From assembly GCA_017999915.1 (NCBI GenBank), contig JAGNKX010000007.1, positions 128,488 to 192,487 on the forward strand: a stretch of 64,000 nucleotides of DNA, given 5' to 3'. A model generated the notes under the pieces. The model was given only the letters and a program-made list of their open reading frames with translations. It was not told where the DNA came from and did not search any database. Shown here in pieces: positions 53,637 through 59,227 of this stretch. The DNA is from Spirochaetota bacterium (GTDB lineage Bacteria > Spirochaetota > UBA4802 > UBA5550). Both the position numbers and the translations under genes were made by a program. Every line of letters starts with the position of its first letter. Positions within the stretch are counted from its first letter, which is position 1.

Positions 53637-53662
53637 AGTTGCTTTCAACAAGGAGCGAATAG

Positions 53663-55219
53663 TTGCAGACACAGGTTCTAGTTATCGGCGGCGGCGCCAC
53701 CGGCACGGCTGTAGCCCGCGATCTGGCTTTGCGCGGCGTGCAGTGCATCCTGGTGGAAAAAGCCGACCTCAATGCCGGAGCGTCCGGAGGGAACCACGGC
53801 CTTCTCCACAGCGGCGGCAGGTACGTTTCCAACGACCAGGAGGCGGCGCGGGAATGCAAGCTGGAAGGCGATATCATAAAAAAGCTGATGCCCCAGTGCG
53901 TCGAGAATACGGGAGGCCTCTTTGTCGCCGTTGAAGGGGATGACGAGAAGTTCATCGCTGACTATCCCTCCTTCTGCGCCCAGTGCGGAGTCCCCTGCGA
54001 GGCCATATCGCCCGAGGAGGCGCGCGACCTGGAGCCGACCCTTTCCGAAAGCGTCATCGCCGCCTACAAGGTAGAGGACGCCTCGGTCGATCCTTTCAAG
54101 CTCACGCTCCTCAACATCAACCAGGCCATTTCCCTCGGCTCGCGGCGACTTCGCAGCACCAGGGTGATCGGTTTTGATATACAGGATAAAAAGATACGGC
54201 GCGTGCTGGTCCGAAATGTCAATACCGGCAATGAATTCCATATTGAGGTCGAGCAGGTGGTCAACTGCGCCGGCGCCTGGGCAAACCAGGTCACCGGTCT
54301 TGCCGGCATCGAGATTCCGATCCAGTATTCCAAGGGAACCCTCCTTGTCACGAACGACAGGATCAACTACCGCATCATCAACCGTCTCAGGCGCCCGTCC
54401 GACGCGGACATCCTGGTGCCGGGCGGCACCGTATCGATCATCGGCACTACCTCGACGCCGGTGGAGGACCCGGATAAAATTTACCCGACCGTGGAAGAGG
54501 TGGACCTGATAGTCCGAGAGGGCGCTGTAATGGTCCCGGTGCTTGAGCGGAGCCGTTTCGTCCGGGCCTACTGCGGCGTGCGGCCCCTCTTTGGCAGGGG
54601 AGGCGGCTCCGACGGGAGGAGCATCAGCCGCGGCTTCGCGCTCCTGGACCACTCAAAGGAGAACGTGGACAACCTGACGACCATAACCGGTGGCAAGCTC
54701 ACCACCTTCAGGCTGATGGCCGAGAAGACCGTCGACCTGGTCTGCCGGAAAATGGGGGTAACCGCCCCCTGCCTGACCGGGACCGAGCCGCTTCCGACGA
54801 CCACCGGCGGCCAGTGGACCGAGCCGGGCATATCCCCCAAGAGATGGATGCGCTCCCACGAAGAGGGCGATATGATGATCTGCGAATGCGAGATGGTCAC
54901 CAGAAAAGCCATCGACGAGATCATCGAATCCCTGAAAAGTCACAATGAGAAAGTGACGCTTGTCGACCTCTGCCTGAGGACCCGCCTCGGCAGGGGCGCC
55001 TGCCAGGGGGCCTTCTGCGGCATGAGGGCGGCCGCCTACCTGTATGAGCGCGGCGAGTTCACCGGCCGGGAGGGGCTCATCAGTATCGGGAAGTTCTTCC
55101 AGGAGCGCTGGAAGGGAATACACTCCATTCTCTGGGGCGACCAGCTGATACAGGCGGAGCTCATGGAATCGATCCATTGCGGCCTCTTCGATGAAGAGCT
55201 GCACACACAATCCAGTTGA
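53663..55219 (+). CDS. glpA: Anaerobic glycerol-3-phosphate dehydrogenase subunit A
   Basis: GlpA is the FAD catalytic subunit that oxidises glycerol-3-phosphate to dihydroxyacetone phosphate. The 518-residue protein starts with the Rossmann motif VIGGGATGTAVARDLALRG, has GNHGLLHSGGRY and the FAD-site TTITGGKLTTFRLMAEK, and ends in a BFD-like [2Fe-2S] domain (MICECEMVTRKA, then GRGACQGAFCGMR). The start codon is TTG at 53663, preceded by AAGGAG. It heads an operon with glpB and two Hdr-like subunits rather than a standard glpC. Confidence 0.95.
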   Translation: MQTQVLVIGGGATGTAVARDLALRGVQCILVEKADLNAGASGGNHGLLHSGGRYVSNDQEAARECKLEGDIIKKLMPQCVENTGGLFVAVEGDDEKFIADYPSFCAQCGVPCEAISPEEARDLEPTLSESVIAAYKVEDASVDPFKLTLLNINQAISLGSRRLRSTRVIGFDIQDKKIRRVLVRNVNTGNEFHIEVEQVVNCAGAWANQVTGLAGIEIPIQYSKGTLLVTNDRINYRIINRLRRPSDADILVPGGTVSIIGTTSTPVEDPDKIYPTVEEVDLIVREGAVMVPVLERSRFVRAYCGVRPLFGRGGGSDGRSISRGFALLDHSKENVDNLTTITGGKLTTFRLMAEKTVDLVCRKMGVTAPCLTGTEPLPTTTGGQWTEPGISPKRWMRSHEEGDMMICECEMVTRKAIDEIIESLKSHNEKVTLVDLCLRTRLGRGACQGAFCGMRAAAYLYERGEFTGREGLISIGKFFQERWKGIHSILWGDQLIQAELMESIHCGLFDEELHTQSS

Positions 55220-55235
55220 GGAGCGCTGACACCGC

Positions 55236-56564
55236 ATGGCACTGCCGAAATCACATAATTACGATCCAGCCCATGTCTTTGACGTCATGGTCATAGGCTC
55301 CGGCATAGCCGGCATGGCCGCCTCGCTCTTCGCCGTCAACCGGAAGCTTTCCACCGTGCAGGCCGGGAGCGCAGGCGGAACGCTCTTCACCAGCGGGCTC
55401 TTTGACCTTCTTTCTGTGTACCCCATCGGGGAAAAAAGGCTCTGGGAAAATCCCTGGGAAGCCATTGACGCCATGCGCCGCGACGGCTCGAGACATCCCT
55501 ACGGCCGCATCTCCAACGAAGACATCCAGGTCTCCTTCGATGAAATGATATCCTTTCTCGGCGCATCGGAGATGAAGCTGCGCTTCGACCAGAACCGCAA
55601 CCTCAAGGTGATCACCTCCATGGGCACCATCAAGTACAGCTACTGCGTCCCGGAATCGATGTGGCACGGCGTCGAGGCCTACGAAACCAAGGCCCCGTGC
55701 CTTATCGTCGATTTTCACGGCCTCAAGGAGTTCGGCGCCCGCCAGATCGCCGTCACCCTGAAGGGGGAGTGGCCTTCGATCCGCACGCTGCGCGTCGCCT
55801 TTCCCGGCACGGCGGGACGCGACGAGATCTACGCGGTCCATCTCGCCCGTGACCTGGAGCTGTCGGAAACGCGCGAGGCCCTGGCCCGTCTCATAAAGCC
55901 TGAGCTCGGGGACGCCAGGTTTGTCGGGCTCCCGGCGGTCCTCGGCATTAAAAGGACGTCCGTCATCACGGCCCATCTTTCGAAGCTCCTCGGCGTCCCG
56001 GTCTTCGAGATACCGATGATGCCCGCTTCCGTACCCGGCTTCAGGCTGAAGGAGATCTTCGACTCGGAGCTTCCTCAGAAGGGGCTCCTACGGCTCATCG
56101 ACAAGCGGGTGGAATCGGTCAACCGCTCCGAAAACGGCAATTTTCTCCTGAACATAGGGGGCAACGACCAGTCGCAGATCATCCAGGCGCGGTCGGTAAT
56201 ACTGGCCACCGGCAGGTTCATGGGCAAGGGGCTCCTCTCCGACCGGAAGGGCATTTTCGAGCCCCTCTTCAATCTGCCGCTTCACCAGCCCGCTGACAGA
56301 ACAGCATGGCACCATGAGCGGTTCCTTCACCCGGCCGGTCACCCGATCAACAGCGCCGGCGTTGAGGTCGACGGCCTGTTCCGTCCCGTTGACGGCGAGG
56401 GGAAGCCAATCTATGAGAATCTTTTCGCGGCCGGGACGATCCTGGCCCATCAGGACTGGATGAGGATGAAGTGCGGCTCCGGTCTTGCCATAGCCACCGC
56501 CTACGCTGCGGTCAACGCCTTCATTGAGAATTTTATGAAAACATCCGCAAGGGAAAGCGCGTAA
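55236..56564 (+). CDS. glpB: Anaerobic glycerol-3-phosphate dehydrogenase subunit B
   Basis: GlpB is the FMN subunit passing electrons from GlpA. The 442-residue protein begins, after a short leader, FDVMVIGSGIAGMAASLFAVN, with GSAGGTLFTSGLFDLLSVYP and the C-terminal WMRMKCGSGLAIATAYAAVNAF, both typical of GlpB. It has no transmembrane segment. The start is 16 bases after glpA, and the stop overlaps the next start by one base (TAATG), which supports a stoichiometric complex. Confidence 0.93.
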   Translation: MALPKSHNYDPAHVFDVMVIGSGIAGMAASLFAVNRKLSTVQAGSAGGTLFTSGLFDLLSVYPIGEKRLWENPWEAIDAMRRDGSRHPYGRISNEDIQVSFDEMISFLGASEMKLRFDQNRNLKVITSMGTIKYSYCVPESMWHGVEAYETKAPCLIVDFHGLKEFGARQIAVTLKGEWPSIRTLRVAFPGTAGRDEIYAVHLARDLELSETREALARLIKPELGDARFVGLPAVLGIKRTSVITAHLSKLLGVPVFEIPMMPASVPGFRLKEIFDSELPQKGLLRLIDKRVESVNRSENGNFLLNIGGNDQSQIIQARSVILATGRFMGKGLLSDRKGIFEPLFNLPLHQPADRTAWHHERFLHPAGHPINSAGVEVDGLFRPVDGEGKPIYENLFAAGTILAHQDWMRMKCGSGLAIATAYAAVNAFIENFMKTSARESA

Positions 56565-58297
56565 TGGCAAAGACCCTGCTCGAATCGACGTTTCTTTTTG
56601 TGTGTCTCTACATAGCCCTGGCCGTATGCGCCGGTGGCATCCTGTTCCGCGTGGGGCGGTGGGCCGTCTCGGATATCGGGCCCCGGGCCGGCATCATCCC
56701 GGTATGGAAGCGCCTGGCCGCCGCGGCAAAGGGGTTTGCCGCAACGGTCTTCAGCCTCAGGTTTTTTCTTTTCTTCAAGGCCCTTCTCCTGGATGTCATT
56801 CTCCAGGCCAGGATTCTTAAAACCGACCCGCTGCGGTGGATCATGCACATCTGCCTCTTTTTCGGGTTCACGCTGCTTCTCCTCATGCACGCCCTTGACG
56901 AGCTGGTGACCAAGAAATTTTTCCCCGAATATTTCTCTACCCTTGACCCCTTCCAGTTGCTGCGAAACATCTTCGGGCTCATGGTGATCGTCGGCGTGGC
57001 CATAGCCATATACCGCCGCGTGCGCCTTCGCGCCCCGATGCTCGTCACCAGGTACGCGGACCGGTACGCGGTGGCCATCCTTGCCGTAATCATGATAAGC
57101 GGCTTCTTCGTGGAGGCGTCGAAGCTTGTTTCCGAGAGCGTATTTAACAGGATGATGAAAGAGTATTCCCCGGCCGGCGGCCCCGCGGACGAGGTCGCGG
57201 TCAAGGCCTACTGGTCCAGGGAATACGGCACGGCTTTCGCGGATTTCGCGGTCACCATAACGCCGGAATTGCTGGAGAAGGGGAGGCAGCTCAACAGCGA
57301 AAGCTGCGCGTCCTGCCATGCGCCGGCCAGATCGGCGTTCATATCGTACCCCCTTTCAATGGTCATAAGGCCGGCGGCCGTGCCGATGGACAGGATCAAG
57401 GCTGACATTATCATTTATTACATCCATGTTCTGGCCTGCTTCATAGGCCTTGCCTATCTCCCCTTCAGCAAATTTTTCCATATCATCACCGATCCCCTCA
57501 CCTTGATCGTGAACGGCATGTCCGATAAAAAAAAGGTGAACCTGGCGGCCGCCATGCCCCGGAGGGCCATGGAGCTGGACGCCTGCACCGATTGCGGCGC
57601 CTGCAGCCGTCACTGCTCGGTGGCGCCGGTGTACCGCATGACCGGCAACGAGGAGATCCTGCCGTCCCGGAAGATGCGCACCGTCAGGTCCCTCTGCTCC
57701 GGGAAAGCCATTGAGGCCGGCGAACTCCGGAAGATATCGGAGGGAGCCTTCATCTGCACGTCCTGCTTCAAGTGCACCGAGGTCTGCCCCACCGGCATCA
57801 ACCTGCAGGACCAGTGGGCGGCCTCCAGGGAGCTTCTCGCGGAAAAGGGCTATCCGCTGCCCCACGTGTGGGTGAAGCGGTTCAGCGCCTCGGAATGGTC
57901 CGACCGGATAAAGGTCAGGGACGCGTCGCTGGCCCGTGATGTCGATACGATCAAGGGGCGGTATTATAATCTTACGGCCGATTCCAACGTGTTCGCCCCC
58001 TGCATCCAGTGCCAGACCTGCACCAACGTGTGCCCGGTCGTGGCCGCCCGGACCGACCGGGAGGACGCGGTGGATATCACGCCACAGAAGATCATGAACC
58101 TTCTACGGCTGGGCCTTAACGACCTCGCCATGGGATCGCGGATGGTCTGGGACTGCGCCACCTGCTACCAGTGCCAGGAAAACTGCCCCCAGGGGATAAA
58201 GGTCACGGACATCATTTATGAGCTTAAGAACAAGGCATACGAGCATTTTAAGGATATTGACCGGACAGGCGATACTACTAAGGACGACGATTCCTGA
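56564..58297 (+). CDS. Membrane electron-transfer subunit: cytochrome b-like domain, c-type heme site and four Fe-S clusters
   Basis: This 577-residue protein is not classical GlpC. The first 310 residues form about six membrane helices of the NarI/HdrE/QmoC cytochrome b type, with a soluble segment holding the c-heme motif CASCH (Cys248, Cys251, His252). The C-terminal half has four CX2CX2CX3C clusters: Cys341-351, Cys398-408, Cys480-490 and Cys531-541, that is, two HdrC-like ferredoxin modules. It should carry electrons from GlpAB to the quinone pool or to a periplasmic acceptor. It shares one base with glpB. The CCG domains of GlpC are on the next gene. Confidence 0.85.
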   Translation: MAKTLLESTFLFVCLYIALAVCAGGILFRVGRWAVSDIGPRAGIIPVWKRLAAAAKGFAATVFSLRFFLFFKALLLDVILQARILKTDPLRWIMHICLFFGFTLLLLMHALDELVTKKFFPEYFSTLDPFQLLRNIFGLMVIVGVAIAIYRRVRLRAPMLVTRYADRYAVAILAVIMISGFFVEASKLVSESVFNRMMKEYSPAGGPADEVAVKAYWSREYGTAFADFAVTITPELLEKGRQLNSESCASCHAPARSAFISYPLSMVIRPAAVPMDRIKADIIIYYIHVLACFIGLAYLPFSKFFHIITDPLTLIVNGMSDKKKVNLAAAMPRRAMELDACTDCGACSRHCSVAPVYRMTGNEEILPSRKMRTVRSLCSGKAIEAGELRKISEGAFICTSCFKCTEVCPTGINLQDQWAASRELLAEKGYPLPHVWVKRFSASEWSDRIKVRDASLARDVDTIKGRYYNLTADSNVFAPCIQCQTCTNVCPVVAARTDREDAVDITPQKIMNLLRLGLNDLAMGSRMVWDCATCYQCQENCPQGIKVTDIIYELKNKAYEHFKDIDRTGDTTKDDDS

Positions 58298-58342
58298 CCG
58301 GAGGCGTGACCGCTGGAACAGGAAAATCAGGATACGGGATAT

Positions 58343-59227
58343 ATGAAATTCGCGTTTTTTAAAGGGTGCAAGATACCATACTACCTCAGCCAGTATGAAA
58401 CATCGACCAGGGCCGTGCTGAAACCCTTCGGGGTCCGCCTGGTGGACCTGGATTTCAACTGCTGCGGATATCCCAACAGGGACCTCTATTTCGAGTCCTT
58501 TGTCCTGTCAGCGGCGAGGAACCTCGCCCTGGCGGAAAAGAAAAGGCTCGATATCGTCACTCCCTGCAAGTGCTGCTACGGCAGCCTCAAGCACGCGGAG
58601 CACTATCTCCATGAAAACGAAAAGCTTCGCAGGGACATCAACGCCGAGCTGGCGAAGGAAGGCCTGTCATGGAAGGGCACCATCAGGGTGCACCACCTCC
58701 TGACGGTGCTCTGCGACGAGATCGGCCTGCCGGCGATATACGCAAGCATCGTCAGGCCCCTGGGCGGCCTCAGCGTGGCGGCCCATTACGGGTGCCACGC
58801 CCTGCGGCCCAGCAACGTGGTCCACTTCGACGATCCCCTTGCCCCGTCGATTTTCGAGGATCTCATATCGGCCACCGGGGCAAAGCCGGTGGATTGGCCC
58901 CGCCGCCTCGACTGCTGCGGCAACCCCCTCCTGGGGAAGAACAACGCCATATCCCTCGCCCTGATGAGCGCGAAAACGGCGGACGCCGCTGAATCCGGCG
59001 CCGACTGCATCTGCACGGCCTGCACTTATTGCCAGATCCAGTTTGACGCGGTGCAGAATGCCGAGACTCCCGAGGAGCGGAAATCCTCTATGGTGCCGGC
59101 CATCCTCTACACCCAGCTCCTCGGCCTGAGCATGGGCCTGCACGAGAGGTCGCTGGGCATCAGCAAAAACGTCCTTGCCATCGAGAAGCTCGGCCCGGCG
59201 TGGAAGCTTCTGCCCGGGGCGTTCTGA
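58343..59227 (+). CDS. HdrB-like CCG-domain protein
   Basis: This 294-residue soluble protein carries two CCG domains, as in heterodisulfide reductase HdrB. In the first, Cys9, Cys40-Cys41, Cys75 and Cys78 fit CX31-39CCX35-36CXXC; the second spans HYGCHALRP, LDCCGNP and CICTACTYC. Such motifs bind the non-cubane [4Fe-4S] cluster that cleaves disulfides in HdrB. In GlpC the same domain is fused to the ferredoxin part; here it is a separate chain 45 bases after the membrane subunit. It probably links GlpAB to the membrane subunit; thiol/disulfide chemistry is possible but not shown. Confidence 0.88.
   Translation: MKFAFFKGCKIPYYLSQYETSTRAVLKPFGVRLVDLDFNCCGYPNRDLYFESFVLSAARNLALAEKKRLDIVTPCKCCYGSLKHAEHYLHENEKLRRDINAELAKEGLSWKGTIRVHHLLTVLCDEIGLPAIYASIVRPLGGLSVAAHYGCHALRPSNVVHFDDPLAPSIFEDLISATGAKPVDWPRRLDCCGNPLLGKNNAISLALMSAKTADAAESGADCICTACTYCQIQFDAVQNAETPEERKSSMVPAILYTQLLGLSMGLHERSLGISKNVLAIEKLGPAWKLLPGAF

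Follow-up and report, generated by a model that had tools for sequence, protein, structure and literature searches.

Anaerobic glycerol-3-phosphate (G3P) dehydrogenases are textbook quinone reducers that pass on their electrons via GlpC. In Escherichia coli, GlpA and GlpB form the catalytic pair and GlpC is a single soluble-type protein that has a dicluster and two CCG domains but neither membrane helices nor a heme of type b or c; GlpABC reduces menaquinone (PMC11962113). Here we describe a four-gene block in a 64,000-nucleotide stretch of a Spirochaetota genome (assembly GCA_017999915.1, contig JAGNKX010000007.1, positions 128,488 to 192,487 of the forward strand; hereafter the window), in which glpA and glpB are followed by a gene for a membrane iron-sulfur cytochrome and by an hdrB-like gene. 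Sequence comparison, which covered gene content, motifs, conservation and co-inheritance as well as likely topology, indicates that the block probably encodes a G3P dehydrogenase in which GlpC is replaced by a split, EtfD/HdrF-like electron wire ending in a periplasmic heme c. Whereas GlpC is one protein, this predicted wire comprises two, doubles the number of cubane clusters and adds a cytochrome domain in the membrane.

Two other described systems come close to the membrane part of the block. Mycobacterial EtfD is a wire in which a linear [3Fe-4S] cluster, a noncubane [4Fe-4S] cluster, two cubane clusters and one heme b lead to menaquinone (PMC13083937). The HdrF1-3 proteins of Desulfobacterium autotrophicum HRM2, named by Strittmatter et al. 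(2009), combine HdrC- and HdrB-like parts with as many as six membrane helices; hdrF1 and hdrF2 adjoin glpAB, the third HdrF lies beside etfAB, and HdrF1/F1' is split over two genes (PMC2702500). The authors suggested that these proteins take part in breaking down dicarboxylates and in pumping protons, and a CxxCH heme site goes unmentioned in the main text (PMC2702500). In Pseudodesulfovibrio methanolicus, glpAB, glpK and heterodisulfide-reductase-like genes are drawn as one cluster, annotated only in a figure legend, with no architecture or function proposed in the accessible part of the text (PMC11505543). The pairing of glpAB with hdr-like genes has therefore been known since 2009. In the open full-text literature we found nothing on a heme c, a capping cysteine or the spread over phyla of such a block, and as far as that literature shows, the heme exit and the distribution over four phyla appear to be undescribed.

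The four genes lie head to tail on the plus strand (53663-59227), and the open reading frames listed in an initial annotation of the window are all present at the coordinates given there. A Shine-Dalgarno-like AAGGAG (53650..53655, + strand, by direct reading) precedes the TTG start of glpA (53663..55219; 518 residues), and 16 nucleotides separate glpA from glpB (55236..56564; 442 residues). The latter shares one base with the third gene (TAATG at 56562-56566), which encodes the 577-residue membrane subunit (56564..58297) and is followed after 45 nucleotides by the gene for the 294-residue HdrB-like subunit (58343..59227).

GlpA scores above the curated equivalog cut-off for the FAD-dependent sn-glycerol-3-phosphate dehydrogenase subunit A (TIGR03377, 590.5 bits against 552.8) and above that of NF008313 (511.6 against 425). 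It has 41% identity with E. coli GlpA across 518 columns, and its residues 405-460 (54875..55042, + strand) match a BFD-like [2Fe-2S] domain barely above the cut-off (PF04324, 26.3 bits against 26). The flavoprotein subunit GlpB, 26% identical to its E. coli counterpart, likewise exceeds the cut-offs of NF003725 (569.4 bits against an equivalog cut-off of 345) and TIGR03378 (211 against 174). With both proteins above equivalog cut-offs and their genes adjacent, as in the anaerobic G3P dehydrogenases, GlpAB is most likely an sn-glycerol-3-phosphate-oxidizing pair. A Pseudodesulfovibrio locus in our survey carries the homologous block directly followed by glpK (a glycerol kinase above its cut-off), which supports G3P as the substrate. 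The third protein fails both GlpC profiles (TIGR03379, 30.8 bits against 279.9; NF008369, 47.1 against 278). No glpC reaches the TIGR03379 cut-off anywhere in the genome (best score 39.6 bits); a true glpC was not found elsewhere, in agreement with its predicted absence.

The block is more general than a single window could show. In each of the six genomes sampled from the genus, the four genes recur in unchanged order, with membrane subunits 63-80% identical. A GlpB alignment scanned against genome contigs returned 76 loci, 67 of which had more than 1 kb downstream of glpB and were usable; their gene content was mapped by tblastn. The membrane subunit directly follows glpB in 27 of the 67, and the HdrB-like gene then follows in nearly all such loci with enough sequence. 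Block-bearing loci belong to Spirochaetota, Thermodesulfobacteriota (Desulfobacterota), Pseudomonadota and Myxococcota. Among 65 membrane subunits placed in a tree, the glpAB-linked ones, 30 in number, form a single clade (support 100/96). Moreover, when pairwise distances are compared between the four subunits, they correlate at 0.94-0.98, a level reached in none of 2000 permutations, with shared species history contributing to it. The initial annotation had argued for a single complex from the one-base overlap and short gaps and had named co-occurrence of the four genes in other genomes as a check; the order does recur, and its conservation over four phyla, the single clade and the correlated distances support such a complex. 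On the GlpB tree, loci with and without the wire are not separable in one step but require six changes, so the history of the wire relative to glpB includes more than one gain or loss. In two further loci (L114 and L118) a GlpC-like gene lies upstream of glpA instead.

In the membrane subunit, two 4Fe-4S diclusters come after a five-helix cytochrome b/c domain, as judged from profiles, conservation, a structural model and topology. Residues 9-303 (56588..57472, + strand) form a NarI/EtfD-like membrane domain that matches PF02665 (25.2 bits against a cut-off of 22.9), as do 26 of 28 family members. The first dicluster (residues 337-412; 57572..57799, + strand) matches PF13183 and its eight cysteines are invariant, whereas the second (residues 478-545; 57995..58198, + strand) matches PF13187 and resembles HdrC and the N terminus of GlpC (phmmer to HdrC 5odc_C, E = 2.5e-11). 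The four CxxCxxCxxxC motifs lie at C341, C398, C480 and C531. Together with a CASCH heme c attachment motif (Cys248-His252; 57305..57319, + strand) in the loop that connects the last two membrane helices, they confirm the motif content first read from the window. Exactly one CxxCH and exactly four CxxCxxCxxxC motifs are found in each of the 27 complete glpAB-linked membrane subunits. A chance CxxCH can be ruled out, since the site is kept in 28 of 28 glpAB-linked homologues, at identities as low as 37%, and in three paralogues at 39% identity.

Across the same 28 homologues, the invariant residues include C248, C251, H252, the cluster cysteines, M197 and four histidines: His95 (codon 56846..56848), His109 (56888..56890), His288 (57425-57427) and His306 (57479-57481), all on the plus strand. 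The four histidines are placed at both ends of two membrane helices. This is the arrangement of di-heme cytochromes b such as NarI. His95 and His306 are the likely ligand pair of a heme b on the cytoplasmic side, and His109 and His288 likely bind a second one on the outer side. M197 may serve as the sixth ligand of heme c. Family-averaged hydropathy reveals five clear helices and a weaker segment at 66-79. The 94-residue CxxCH loop averages 8.9 Lys and Arg against 13.0 Asp and Glu in the family, and the loop charges overall likely place the N terminus and the CxxCH loop outside and the cluster domains inside. Cys248-His252 would thus face the periplasm, the side anticipated for it, and this topology and the invariant heme c site support a heme-bearing membrane exit. 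The genome also has genes of the kind needed to mature a c-type cytochrome: CcmA-, CcmC- and CcmF-like genes are grouped on contig 1, with the tryptophan-rich motifs of CcmC and CcmF visible.

The best match of the AlphaFold2 model (mean pLDDT 76.7) to a solved fold is mycobacterial EtfD (9ojn; Z = 23.8, root-mean-square deviation 3.8 Å over 344 residues), followed by a match at 8.4; Foldseek matches ranked under EtfD and HdrC were treated as noise. The Foldseek list holds no NarI chain, which tells nothing for or against likeness to NarI. As in EtfD of Mycobacterium smegmatis, a five-helix cytochrome b domain and a dicluster are combined in one fold and joined to CCG domains in what appears to be an electron wire. 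There are differences, however. EtfD, which serves electron-transferring flavoprotein, is a single chain that carries two cubane clusters and one heme b but lacks heme c, whereas the block has glpAB as donor genes and a wire of two chains with four cubane motifs, one heme c and likely two hemes b. The architecture and the glpAB/etfAB context of HdrF from D. autotrophicum also match, a comparison made by description, not by sequence. With respect to HdrBC, HdrDE and QmoC, the HdrB-like subunit matches solved HdrB and the second dicluster matches HdrC, but the block stays below the HdrB and QmoC cut-offs, has an extra, putatively capping cysteine and a heme c, and lacks HdrA and QmoAB. The membrane subunit reaches 85.7 bits on the QmoC profile NF038018 (cut-off 300) and places its membrane domain first and two diclusters after it, which rules out a strict QmoC or HdrE identity. 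The 'QmoC/HdrE-like' label of the initial annotation was therefore imprecise; among solved folds EtfD comes closest, and among described gene types HdrF does.

Cluster and heme occupancy, the order and direction of electron flow and the acceptor are as we infer them in the following path. In the cytoplasm, GlpA would oxidize G3P to dihydroxyacetone phosphate. Electrons would pass through the flavins of GlpA and GlpB and the [2Fe-2S] domain of GlpA to the CCG clusters of the HdrB-like subunit, acting as relays, and from there through four cubane [4Fe-4S] clusters and two membrane hemes b to the heme c on the periplasmic side. The final acceptor would be menaquinone, a periplasmic cytochrome or both.

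The strongest competing explanation, to which we give somewhat less than an even chance, is a plain glycerol-3-phosphate:menaquinone oxidoreductase in which electrons leave at the hemes b and heme c is a side site or tunes an outer quinone site. EtfD, the closest solved fold, feeds menaquinone via one heme b, the E. coli enzyme has the same acceptor, and the block itself contains no candidate gene for a cytochrome acceptor. However, EtfD has only the one heme b, whereas homologues from four phyla keep both the heme c site and the likely outer heme b pair unchanged, and this constraint suggests a chain that spans the whole membrane. At its furthest, a wire ending in periplasmic heme c would make the block a glycerol-3-phosphate:periplasmic-cytochrome oxidoreductase that takes electrons off a sugar phosphate in the cytoplasm and carries them across the entire membrane, through iron-sulfur clusters, two hemes b and heme c, with no need for quinone. 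We propose this version tentatively and would not be surprised if it proved wrong. If true, it would be one input form of a modular transmembrane heme c wire that is plugged elsewhere into MTHFR or HdrA.

The fourth gene bears on whether the complex carries out thiol chemistry, as the initial annotation had suggested. Its product contains two complete CCG motifs, matching the two CCG domains predicted for it, and aligns with solved HdrB (5odc_B, phmmer E = 1.8e-56), though it scores below the cut-off of the HdrB profile TIGR03288 (226.8 bits against 345). All ten cysteines of the two noncubane clusters of HdrB are retained, so that, taken alone, this would allow thiol chemistry. An enzyme acting on a disulfide or trisulfide partner such as DsrC at the expense of G3P could be envisioned, as a dsrA gene is present in the genome and its DsrC has both of the C-terminal cysteines, and a CCG/heme c/HdrA complex of HotSeep-1 has been proposed to act on DsrC (PMC10553843). 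In the first CCG domain, however, the motif C75-K-C77-C78 (58565..58576, + strand) contains an additional cysteine, Cys77, which is invariant in 22 of 22 aligned homologues and stands at the position of His583 in EtfD. In EtfD (C581-x-H583-C584), this histidine completes the second cluster and, according to the authors, renders it non-catalytic (PMC13083937). In the soluble HdrB paralogues encoded in the same genome, this region reads CASC and CAAC and the extra cysteine is lacking, whereas CxCC occurs in almost every HdrB-like partner across the wider heme c wire family. From the position of the motif we infer that Cys77 caps the cluster and that the HdrB-like subunit relays electrons. CCG domains that merely pass electrons are common, as in GlpC and EtfD, and the first CCG domain of E. 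coli GlpC has lost its CxxC cysteines. In addition, 7 of 20 genomes carrying the complex gave no DsrC match; these are metagenome-assembled genomes (MAGs), in which some of the absences may be artefactual; the majority, however, are of Burkholderiaceae type or myxococcal and are mutually consistent. Thiol chemistry is thus unlikely, because the invariant Cys77 stands at the place of the capping histidine, and the suggestion finds no support. An apparent histidine at position 77 in two homologues was a pattern-match artefact of genes with a stop or frameshift. In one Proteobacteria MAG (L093, 11986-12792) the HdrB-like gene is broken by an in-frame stop, and in another (L108, 12017-12822) it is split over two reading frames, by sequencing error or decay.

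It is similarly improbable that the operon houses two separate machines, with GlpAB working by itself or through a different anchor and the membrane/HdrB-like pair taking electrons from other donors. Outside the glpAB-linked clade, membrane subunits are indeed found alone or beside HdrA or MTHFR genes, and glpAB also occurs without the pair. Yet the glpAB-linked pair branches as one clade apart from all others, divergence runs in parallel across the four subunits, and glpB overlaps the membrane gene by one base. Reverse operation in vivo, with dihydroxyacetone phosphate reduced by periplasmic or quinol electrons for lipid synthesis, is very unlikely: all steps are chemically reversible and no glycerol gene adjoins the block in the source genome, but the glpK beside the Pseudodesulfovibrio block points to glycerol breakdown and the source genome has a glpK as well.

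Several observations weigh against a G3P dehydrogenase with a heme c-terminated wire. The membrane pair is missing from 40 of the 67 usable glpAB loci, many of them from sulfate reducers, and most relatives of the block are MAGs. The AlphaFold2 model is only fair, and poor at residues 458-504, part of the second dicluster. The CcmA, CcmC and CcmF matches fall under curated cut-offs, and a search with a single multiheme family, PF14537, which leaves other cytochrome families aside, found no periplasmic c-type cytochrome acceptor. The one true glycerol kinase gene (663 bits) sits on another contig than the block, and the genome encodes three GlpD-like proteins, all under GlpD cut-offs; the complex therefore need not be the sole route for G3P.

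The block suggests a widespread variant of anaerobic G3P dehydrogenase with a cytochrome b/c exit in sulfate reducers, spirochaetes, myxobacteria and betaproteobacteria, and such a wire would account for glpAB operons that lack glpC. One CxxCH, four histidines, four cubane motifs and a CxCC partner provide a signature for finding further blocks. Related wires occur with other partners. In other Spirochaetota, a membrane/HdrB-like pair with ~40% identity and a retained CxxCH is flanked by an MTHFR-like gene on one side and a long HdrA2 gene on the other (L039 and L041), possibly forming a membrane-linked methylene-tetrahydrofolate reductase complex. These wire relatives beside MTHFR and HdrA raise the question of how the methyl branch of the Wood-Ljungdahl pathway exchanges electrons with membranes. 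The paralogous heme c pair is seen at L039 (811-9169, - strand), L041 (745-8909, - strand) and L040 (11961-14514, + strand), where the HdrA2-like gene encodes 1490 residues. An SdhAB-type partner, guessed from protein sizes, proved wrong; the genes encode a histidine kinase and the MTHFR-like protein. In Desulfobacterota the pair lies beside HdrA or alone, and at L183-L196 and L199 it forms a two-gene unit without a recognizable donor gene.

The source genome carries solely the glpAB version of the wire. Contig 1 of the same genome also encodes a soluble HdrB and a 1496-residue HdrA2/glutamate-synthase-like fusion (L046, 879-6227, - strand), similar to the HdrL type of D. autotrophicum. The assembly spans 5.46 Mb at 99% completeness, and its closest public relatives are MAGs of uncultured Spirochaetes. 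In the window, the block is flanked by a TatD-like gene and an Hsp33 gene that are unrelated to it. The genome further has a dsrA above its cut-off (562 bits), an adjoining match that fits dsrB, a CbiA/DsrN-like gene and the DsrC noted above (L249, contig 6, 96500-112500; L215 and L217). Given these genes, the spirochaete may reduce, or oxidize, sulfite; dsrAB has already been reported in Spirochaetota (PMC10591310).

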